From Lacimicrobium alkaliphilum (GTDB lineage: Bacteria > Pseudomonadota > Gammaproteobacteria > Enterobacterales > Alteromonadaceae), in NCBI RefSeq assembly GCF_001466725.1, contig NZ_CP013650.1:620001-684000 (forward strand): DNA of 64,000 bases, written 5' to 3'. The notes beneath the pieces are model-generated. The model saw only the letters and a list, made by a program, of their open reading frames with translations. It was not told the origin of the DNA and searched no databases. The position numbers and the translations under genes are program-made. Shown here one piece after another: positions 2,835-62,016 of this stretch; within the stretch, counting starts at the first letter, position 1; every line of letters starts with the position of its first letter.

Positions 2835-3292
2835 ATAGCATTGATATGTACCTTAGAAGAGTAAACTTCTGGCTCTCACATCGGGACCGGGAAAGTATTT
2901 CATCTTCGATTCGGGAAGCGTTAGAAGATCAGGTCCAGGCTAAAGAGATACAGCTCGGCAGGCAACTGACGGATACAGAAATCAGCCAGGTAGTTAAGCA
3001 GTTCGGACCGCCTGCTCTTGCTGCATCAAGGTACAAGTTATATCGGCCCTTAATTGCCGGATCACTTATGCTCGTTTTTCTCAGGATCATTAGTATGGGG
3101 CTTATGGCAATTCTGCTTGTTCAGGGAGTATTGGTCAGTGTGGCTATTGTAAATGATGTGCCAATCGGTGAGGCGTTGGTTGAGGGGTTAGGGCGCGCCG
3201 TCATCGGATTTTGCATTGGATTCACCTTAACTACGCTGGTTTTCGCGTGGTTAACCCGAATCTATCCATGTGCAGGGGATGAGGCAATCTGA
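2831..3292 (+). CDS. HAAS-domain membrane protein, PadR partner
   Basis: A 153-residue protein. The N-terminal ~70 residues form a soluble helical domain of the HAAS type (MYLRRVNFWLS, REALEDQV, LTDTEISQVVKQFGPPALAASRY). Two hydrophobic membrane segments follow, near residues 75-105 and 120-145. HAAS or permease-prefix domains commonly sit directly behind PadR genes and are thought to link membrane state to the regulator. The start overlaps the padR stop (ATGA). The exact role is unknown. Confidence 0.75.
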   Translation: MNSIDMYLRRVNFWLSHRDRESISSSIREALEDQVQAKEIQLGRQLTDTEISQVVKQFGPPALAASRYKLYRPLIAGSLMLVFLRIISMGLMAILLVQGVLVSVAIVNDVPIGEALVEGLGRAVIGFCIGFTLTTLVFAWLTRIYPCAGDEAI

Positions 3293-59930: not shown

Positions 59931-60674
59931 GTGAGTGAAGTCAGGTTAATCAGGTTAAATAAATTTATCAGTGATTCGGGCTATTGTTCGCGCCGTGAAG
60001 CGGACAAACTGATTGAACAGGGCAAAGTCACCATCAATGGCGTGGTGCCTGAACTGGGCACTAAGGTGGCCCCGGGCGATAGCGTTGAGGTCAATGGTAG
60101 ATCCATCGGCAGCAGCGCCGCCGATAAATCAGACCGGGTGTATATCGCCTATCACAAGCCGCCGGGCATTATCTGCACCACTGAGCGAAATGTACGGGGT
60201 AATATCGTCGATGCCATCAACCATCCCCAGCGTATTTTCCCGATTGGCAGACTGGATAAAGACTCTGAAGGTCTGATTCTGCTCACTACAGATGGTGATA
60301 TCGTCAATAAAATTCTGCGTGCCGGCAATCGTCATGAAAAAGAGTATATTGTCACCGTCAACCAGCCTGTCAGTGAGCGGTTTGTGCGCCAGATGAGCAA
60401 AGGCGTGCCCATATTAGGCACCGTCACCCAGCCCTGTCAGGTGATCCCGCAAAGCCGTTTTGTGTTTAAGATTATTCTTACTCAGGGCCTGAACCGCCAG
60501 ATCCGCCGTATGTGCGAATTCCTGGACTATGAAGTGACCAGACTAAAGCGCGTGCGGATTATGGATATTAATCTTGGCAATCTTAAGGCTGGAAAATGGC
60601 GTAATTTAACGGACCAGGAAATGGCCCGCATTAATCAGGCAGTACAACATTCTAAAAAGACGGTGGATGAGTGA
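59931..60674 (+). CDS. rluF: 23S rRNA pseudouridine synthase RluF
   Basis: 247 residues. An N-terminal S4 domain (LNKFISDSGYCSRREADKLIEQG) is followed by the RsuA-family catalytic core with the Asp in FPIGRLDKDSEGLILLT. The specific stretches NKILRAGNRHEKEYIVTV, MSKGVPILGTVTQPC and GLNRQIRRMCEFLDYEV match RluF (U2604). It is shorter than the E. coli protein because the basic C-terminal tail is missing. The stop codon runs straight into the GAGTTAG array. Confidence 0.9.
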   Translation: MSEVRLIRLNKFISDSGYCSRREADKLIEQGKVTINGVVPELGTKVAPGDSVEVNGRSIGSSAADKSDRVYIAYHKPPGIICTTERNVRGNIVDAINHPQRIFPIGRLDKDSEGLILLTTDGDIVNKILRAGNRHEKEYIVTVNQPVSERFVRQMSKGVPILGTVTQPCQVIPQSRFVFKIILTQGLNRQIRRMCEFLDYEVTRLKRVRIMDINLGNLKAGKWRNLTDQEMARINQAVQHSKKTVDE

Positions 60675-60770
60675 GTTAGGAGTTAGGAGTTAGGAGTTAG
60701 GAGTTAGGAGTTAGGAGTTAGGAGTTAGGAGTTAGGAGTTAGGAGTTAGGAGTTAGGAGTTAGGAGTTAG
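60673..60770 (+). repeat. perfect (GAGTTAG)14 heptanucleotide array
   Basis: 98 bases, 14 exact copies, beginning inside the rluF stop codon. 42 bases separate it from the second array. Confidence 0.97.
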
Positions 60771-60812
60771 GAAAAATTTTGACTAATCAAACACCTGAGT
60801 CAAGCTTTTTCT

Positions 60813-60889
60813 GCCTCACGCCTCACGCCTCACGCCTCACGCCTCACGCCTCACGCCTCACGCCTCACGCCTCACGCCTCACGCCTCAC
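60813..60889 (+). repeat. perfect (GCCTCAC)11 heptanucleotide array
   Basis: 77 bases, 11 exact copies, ending directly at the stop codon of the convergent npr gene (60890-60892). Read on the minus strand the unit is GTGAGGC, which matches the other array's GTTAGGA at five of seven positions. Confidence 0.97.
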
Positions 60890-61171
60890 TCACTGCTCTT
60901 CATTAAACTTCTTCTGAATCAGCTGTTCTACGGCGGCCATGGCCGCTTCGGCGTCCTGGCCTTCGCTGACTACCCTGACTTCCTTGCCCATGCTGCTTTC
61001 CAGCATCATCAGGCCCAGTACACTGGTGGCAGACGCGGATTTATCGCCCTGATGGATGGTGACTTCGGCATCAAACTGATTGGCCAGTTTGGCCAGTTGA
61101 GTGGCGGCTCTGGCGTGCAGCCCGAGCTTATTCTGGATCAGCAGGATCTTTTCCAGTTTATCGGTACTCAT
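60890..61171 (-). CDS. ptsO: HPr-like phosphocarrier NPr of the nitrogen PTS
   Basis: 93 residues. The phosphorylated His19 lies in [17 protein letters not shown] and the regulatory region [13 protein letters not shown] is present. NPr carries phosphate from PtsP (EI-Ntr) to PtsN. It starts inside the last codons of rapZ (four-base overlap) and is the last gene of the rpoN cluster. Confidence 0.92.
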
Positions 61172-62016
61172 TCCCGCGATAACTCCCGGTGCCGGATCTG
61201 CACATCAGGGTGTACCGCGCGAAAGGTTCTGGCCAGGCTCTCTGCCACATACACTGAGCGATGCTGGCCTCCTGTACAGCCGATGGCAATGGTCACATAA
61301 CTGCGGTTATTGCGCTCGAGATGCGGCAGCCAGGTGGAGATCAAATTCTGTATCTGCCAGATAAATTTGGTGACGATGGCCTGTGAGCCGAGAAAGGTTT
61401 CTACCTGCGGATCTAACCCGGTCAGGTGTTTGAGCTCTGGTTCCCAGTGGGGATTTGGCAGAAAGCGGGCGTCAAATACGTAGTCGGCATCTTTAGGAAT
61501 ACCGTGTTTAAAGCCAAAGGACTCAAATACCAGCACCAGACGCGAGCTTTTCTTGCCCAGAATACGTTCACGCACCAGTTCGGCCAGTTGGTGTACTGAC
61601 AGTTCACCGGTATCGATATAAAGATCGGCGCGTTCGGCGATAGGGGCCAGTAACACCGCTTCAGACTGGATGGCGTCAGTCAGGGACTTACTGCGCTTGG
61701 ACAGAGGATGCAGACGGCGGGTTTCGCTGAAGCGCTTGATCAGCACATCGTCGCTGGCATCTAAGTATAAAATCATCAGTTCCCAGGTGGCAGGCAGGTA
61801 ATCGAGTATCTCTACCAGCTCTTCGGGATCTTTGGGCAGGTTACGTACATCAATGCTCACTGCTACCTGATCGTATTCATCCACCACTGTATGGGTGAGG
61901 GTGGGCAGCAGGTTGACCGGAATATTATCCACACAGTAGTAGCCCAGGTCCTCCAGAGAGCGCAGCACGATGGATTTACCGGAGCCGGAGCGGCCACTGA
62001 TGATAATGAGTTTCAC
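61168..62016 (-). CDS. rapZ: RNase adapter protein RapZ
   Basis: 282 residues. Walker A is SGRSGSGKS at the N-terminus, then DNIPVNLLP. The C-terminal domain carries [14 protein letters not shown]. RapZ delivers the sRNA GlmZ to RNase E and senses glucosamine-6-phosphate in enterobacteria. It has four-base overlaps with ptsN upstream and npr downstream. Confidence 0.96.

Follow-up and report, generated by a model that had tools for sequence, protein, structure and literature searches.

Inward-facing heptanucleotide arrays around a conserved palindrome at the rluF/npr junction of Lacimicrobium alkaliphilum: a probable small dispersed repeat

The gap between the converging genes rluF and npr of Lacimicrobium alkaliphilum consists of (GAGTTAG)14, 42 nt and (GCCTCAC)11, which raises the question of what such a pair of seven-base arrays is: two independent microsatellites, a device that ends transcripts, or one copy of something that occurs elsewhere. 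The locus lies in the window studied here, that is, the whole stretch of 64,000 nucleotides at positions 620001-684000 of one 4,378,835-base contig.

The rluF/npr gap and other heptamer arrays of the genome

TRF and the sequence itself bore out the composition of the gap described in the initial annotation and the perfection of both arrays (period 7 and 100% match in each, with 14.3 copies and a score of 200 for array 1, and 11.0 copies and a score of 154 for array 2). As 14 whole units were counted in array 1, 42 nt are left as the spacing between the arrays (Table 1). Both arrays meet stop codons, as had been noticed, the TGA of rluF (60672-60674) sharing two bases with array 1 and the end of npr (60890) being the immediate neighbour of array 2. 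They are also inverted relatives of each other, the minus-strand unit of array 2, GTGAGGC, agreeing with GTTAGGA at five of seven positions. The Rfam search returned nothing up to E 1 at 60400-61200. A plus-strand ORF of 173 aa with HASRLTP repeats (window 60779-61300) is probably spurious and due to array 2 being read antisense to npr.

Table 1. Features of the rluF/npr junction, in window positions
Feature	Positions	Strand	Basis
rluF-like pseudouridine synthase gene	59931..60674	+	PF00849, PF01479 (PseudoU_synth_2 and S4 domains)
Heptamer array 1, (GAGTTAG)14.3, i.e. (GTTAGGA)14 running 5'->3' towards the core	60673..60772	+	TRF; 14 units counted
Conserved 44-bp imperfect-palindrome core, A-tract / TTGACT ... 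AGTCAA / T-tract	60769..60812	-	alignment
Heptamer array 2, (GCCTCAC)11 on +, i.e. (GTGAGGC)11 on -, towards the core	60813..60889	-	TRF; 11 units counted
npr (HPr-like PTS protein) gene, its stop touching array 2	60890..61171	-	PF00381 (PTS-HPr domain)

Chance can be ruled out for perfect runs of this length. Exact runs of three copies of GAGTTAG or GCCTCAC were found nowhere else in the 4.38-Mb genome, and these exact-unit searches suggested a one-off locus; that idea was abandoned when the degenerate unit GTKAGGM, in three copies, revealed three more loci in the same genome, one of them a second twin. The same degenerate search, applied to 98 genomes (this one and its relatives), detected arrays in five of them, and the expected recurrence of the arrays in this genome and in relatives was thus found. 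In a sample of 2.064 Mb (47% of the genome, partly picked for known arrays), the perfect arrays with at least three copies and at least 18 nt had period 7 in seven cases, period 6 in six, period 12 in two and periods 8 and 9 in one each, and none had periods 2-5, 10, 11 or 13-15; the surplus of period 7 over period 6 is therefore modest (7 vs 6). At several loci of this genome an array starts at a stop codon or a few bases from it. At 3621176-3621209 of the genome (L416), (TGATGAG)4.9 begins 1 nt past the end of a plus-strand ORF and has no recognised core. Other arrays without a recognised core are L052, L054 and L057-L059. In L052 (~2974-3114) the heptamer array stands immediately beside a sequence which we take to resemble a REP doublet of the GTAGCCCG... 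type.

A palindromic core shared by two genera

When the spacers of four elements, taken from three genomes, were aligned, the middle proved to be conserved, the 42 nt at rluF/npr belonging to an imperfect palindrome of ~44 bp with the consensus AGAAAAATCTTGACTTAACnnATTGATATnTCAAnATTTTTCC. A model (R1) built from these four elements, with core and flanking units, was run on 295 family genomes with strict filters, under which weak matches may be lost. Matches at E < 0.002 were confined to the genus of the window, Lacimicrobium (Alteromonadaceae; 3 genomes), and to one other genus of the same family (4 genomes), and the best match outside these two genera in the 295 genomes had an E of 0.0027. 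The R2 match to the window core (genome 680770-680812, E 4.2e-7) concerns a core that belongs to the training set. A core-only match that was new and carried an array (genome 574742, E 3.2e-4) is the orthologue of a training sequence; as R1 moreover includes array units, no match is fully independent of the discovery of the family. One core, compared with a plasmid collection, gave no match.

With L101 and L107 left out as doubtful (22 reduced to 20), 20 cores from the two genera align over 44 columns, almost gapless. Their median identity is 26/44, and some weak members of the family may be chance matches because the cores diverge; one core of G183 is a perfect 19+1+19 palindrome, near the consensus. 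Of the 20 cores, 14 have a flanking perfect array of 18 nt or longer, and six of these have one on either side. All 12 arrays on the left are G-rich and all eight on the right are C-rich, so that 20 of 20 point inward. The six cores without an array of this length (L095-L099 and L111) all come from G183. Beside the cores we also found units unlike those of R1, namely GAATGAT/GCACTCA, GTGCTGA/TCATTCA, CTGACAA, GTTGTCA and GTAAGGC, as well as GTTAGGT.

The suggested location at convergent 3' ends holds for 12 of the 19 classifiable elements and fails for the other seven, which lie between tandem genes; none is divergent and the twentieth lies at a contig edge. Other gene pairs of the same stretches were 6 convergent, 33 tandem and 14 divergent (Fisher p 3e-5, convergent vs rest). 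These element counts take in four orthologous-looking pairs, and removing one member of each leaves 10 convergent and 5 tandem. Genes were defined as long ORFs and single calls may err, npr (93 aa) being below the cut-off and the left ORF of L100 entering the repeat. Array edges lie at or inside the last codons of genes.

Turnover between related genomes and the nature of the element

Among 30 family genomes examined, arrays 3' of npr occur in two only, the window's genome (G000) and G002. The anticipated variation in length was observed between these species, with 11 vs 9 units on the npr side and 14 vs 5 on the other side, where the array of G000 enters the rluF stop. In G002 a DUF1194/PEP-CTERM gene lies between the element and rluF; it is not there in G000. 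Orthologous-looking pairs elsewhere differ likewise in copies (L102/L104, 5 vs 9 and 10 vs 1; L103/L105, 8 vs 7). Inspected by eye, the alr/rpiR junction has the element in G000, another inverted repeat in G002 and neither in G001. The argR/endonuclease junction, also by eye, has the element in G002, another inverted repeat in G000, a heptamer-like sequence in G183, hairpins in G102, G163 and G016, and another repeat in G135; the G002 core at this junction is identical at 40 of 44 positions to the core of another G002 locus. The terminal few codons of rluF and alr are, by eye, unlike those of G002. The idea that the element alters the adjacent stop codon was tried and rejected, six npr loci without the element using TAA (4), TGA (1) and TAG (1) by eye.

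Two of the other inverted repeats, at argR/endonuclease in G000 (L312) and at alr/rpiR in G002 (L320), have ends like GTGGGGTCAGAGTAAACTTTT and AAAAAGGGGTCGTAGTTAATTAT, and the convergent gaps that hold them carry the heptamer element in the congener. In G135 two gaps (L316 and L323) carry repeats resembling CACCGCAGAGGCG / CTCTGCGGTG, which seem to form a further dispersed family. Judged from these sequences, convergent gaps look like sites where several kinds of short inverted repeats come and go.

A fourth locus has the element in all three Lacimicrobium genomes. G001 has GTTAGGA / (GCCTCAC)12 there, and G002 and G000 have a few GTTAGGA / GCCTCAC units outside and GAATGAT / GCACTCA inside; the cores of G001 and G002 are identical at 30 of 44 positions. 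This could reflect unit switching beside the core, or the insertion of a second element into the first. The G000 core at this locus (L363, ~573487-574742) is split by an IS of ~1.25 kb with HTH_Tnp_1 and rve ORFs, with TCG on either side of the IS. In G183 the core-like match L101 lies directly against a similar IS end.

Taken together, these data make it probable that the window feature is one copy of a small repeat that is dispersed and non-autonomous and has unstable heptamer arms. The element itself is best described, with comparable confidence, as a ~44-bp imperfect palindrome with two 7-bp arrays whose G-rich strands run 5'->3' into the palindrome. The supports are the core that separate loci in two genera have in common, inward arrays of several units at 14 of 20 cores, presence and absence between congeners, changes in array length and unit, the enrichment at convergent junctions and the edges at last codons. 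Copies would spread by duplication or transposition, and their arms would grow, shrink and change unit via slippage or unequal exchange. They would persist mainly at 3' ends, since a copy does least harm there, and each copy may be a weak two-way transcript end or functionless.

Concerning a mobile origin, half-cores were searched in eight genomes (17-mer, two mismatches) and none were found around a candidate transposase gene; the 10 matches comprised seven in known elements and three others with two mismatches. An autonomous partner was accordingly not retained as a candidate, none being seen with this one half-core pattern in the eight genomes. No target-site duplication was readable, the sites of relatives carrying other inverted repeats or rearranged spacers. 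REP/BIME elements and MITEs are short palindromic intergenic dispersed non-autonomous repeats; the window element differs from them by its heptamer arms, and one half-core search of eight genomes identified no matching IS ends. Elhai et al. reportedly described in 2008 small dispersed repeats (SDR) of 21-27 nt embedded in Nostoc heptamer repeats. According to that description, SDR resemble the window element in being short and dispersed within heptameric arrays, and differ from it in sequence.

The main rival to a dispersed mini-element tolerated at gene ends, which we regard as most likely, is a functional two-way terminator or insulator, in which converging transcripts would read G-rich heptamers and then the A-/T-tract palindrome, and end there. 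The location of 12 of 19 elements between convergent genes speaks for it, and that of 7 of 19 between tandem genes against it. The window element occupies the entire gap, so that no other terminator fits; the terminator scan found no standard terminator at 60500-61100, as first remarked, nor is there a GC-rich stem followed by a T-run in that interval. Ordinary terminators were however found at 2/12 element junctions vs 49/178 other convergent junctions of this genome, which is not clearly different, and their scarcity was therefore discarded as a proof of function. A long imperfect RNA hairpin had been proposed, and folding predictions yield one for each strand (-74.1 and -68 kcal/mol, z -3.2 and -2.1) as the arms are roughly complementary, which would suit such a role. 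The cores alone fold weakly (median -5.6 kcal/mol, median z -0.99, z < -2 in 13 of 40 strands) and their paired columns show no covariation beyond shuffles in the 20-core alignment, which argues against it and led us to drop the idea that the core has a conserved RNA structure. Among the slides, the palindromic register nevertheless pairs best (66.6% of cells paired vs 37-51%), and we take the core to be a conserved DNA dyad, which may decay from a perfect palindrome, rather than a conserved RNA. The absence of the element at orthologous junctions also weighs against a terminator. For the G4-forming heptamer repeats of Rehm et al., transcripts are stated to start or stop within them more often than within control repeats (PMC4692102), which favours this explanation. 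On balance, we consider a terminator possible but doubtful.

Facing arrays in other phyla and the origin of heptamer pairs

A scan for four copies of GTKAGGM in one genome per species gave at least 119 stretches in Cyanobacteria, Bacteroidota, Planctomycetes, Clostridia, Proteobacteria and others (organism titles being listed for 80 of the 119). GTKAGGM arrays were also detected in viral contigs, in 31 stretches. Neighbouring perfect 7-bp arrays at most 150 nt apart formed 46 pairs among the stretches listed, of which 15 had the G-rich array followed by the C-rich one (convergent) and none the reverse, the rest being same-type or balanced. For 11 of the convergent pairs the gene context is known in the stretches listed, with genes convergent in 2, tandem in 7 and divergent in 2. 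Because these contexts are mixed, the facing arrangement belongs to the array pair and holds whichever way the genes run; since it characterises the pair rather than convergent genes, it constrains every explanation. Among the 97 arrays with enough flank in the stretches listed, 21 lie inside long ORFs, some perhaps spurious, and the remaining 76 are convergent (20), tandem (49), divergent (6) or unplaced (1). The gene on the 5' side lies at a median distance of 10 nt where it ends there (43 cases) and of 44 nt where it starts there (32 cases), again among the stretches listed. Perfect arrays of period 7 number 221 in these stretches, which were picked for period 7, vs 3, 5, 6 and 8 for periods 5, 6, 8 and 9.

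These counts bear on the view that the arrays are plain heptanucleotide microsatellites, produced by polymerase slippage at each site, with incidental pairing and core. Many bacterial genomes have an excess of heptamers, and the slippage idea has been cited for them (PMC4692102); arrays without a recognised core (L052 and L054) and cores without arrays also fit. Independent slippage predicts neither the 15 to 0 ratio of near opposite-type arrays among the stretches listed nor the inward direction of all 20 core-side arrays, and unlinked loci share the core, for which significant matches are confined to two genera. We thus judge this explanation unlikely.

A paired form at stop codons, initially held to be unknown, has in fact been published for Xanthomonas. 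Rehm et al. (2015, PMC4692102) described GGGAATC and GGGGA(C/T)T heptamer repeats in Xanthomonas and Nostoc, with 70 and 75 convergent plus/minus pairs in two Xanthomonas genomes, a preference for stop codons, few repeats between divergent genes, and length and sequence differing among related species. The window element likewise has G-rich 7-bp units in two tandem arrays on opposite strands that face each other. Their repeats contain GGG runs, whereas the window units GTTAGGA and GTGAGGC contain only GG and so lack the G-tracts of three or more for a G-quadruplex. The available parts of that paper mention no shared core, unlike the palindrome between the arrays in our family, and place 16% of the repeats between convergent genes, compared with 12/19 here (PMC4692102). 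The TAACTGA repeats of Beggiatoaceae, Cyanobacteria and Bacteroidetes (MacGregor 2015, PMC4679880) are similarly 7-bp, mostly intergenic, with stops in three frames of one strand, and patchy across phyla. Their unit differs from those of the window, in the BOGUAY genome most of them lie shortly before start codons and one set is inverted, and the available text mentions no core (PMC4679880).

It is also conceivable, although in our opinion improbable, that the core generates heptamer arrays with fixed polarity on both sides and with unit switching, newer units being inside and older ones pushed outward. This was suggested by one orthologous locus in three Lacimicrobium genomes, where the outer units are kept and inner GAATGAT / GCACTCA are present in two. 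Growth at the core is disfavoured as a general rule, because degenerate units are about equally common on both sides: on the gene side vs the core side they occur in 44 vs 48 arrays (threshold 4) and in 34 vs 39 (threshold 5), and the comparison of neighbouring units gave 41 vs 43 and 32 vs 35 arrays (p 0.64-0.91; 130/137 arrays). A general polarity of array ageing was rejected on these grounds. If this explanation were true, a process of this kind would also have produced the convergent heptamer pairs of several phyla, and would account for the frequent occurrence of seven-base repeats in bacteria. Finally, perfect repeats are prone to assembly errors, but an artefact is refuted as to the existence of the element, since the architecture recurs in separate genomes of the genus and in a second genus, the npr copy is common to G000 and G002 and the window lies within a single contig; copy numbers are as assembled.

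What is new here is the core, the turnover at the species level and the facing arrangement across several phyla; no description of the core or of this cross-phylum arrangement was found in the open-licence literature, as far as it was available, subscription literature being outside the scope. In 2015 the role of over-represented bacterial heptamer repeats was described as open (PMC4692102). With its recognisable core, its comparable loci in three congeneric genomes, and its gains, losses and unit changes, the family provides a system for tracing the origin of such arrays.
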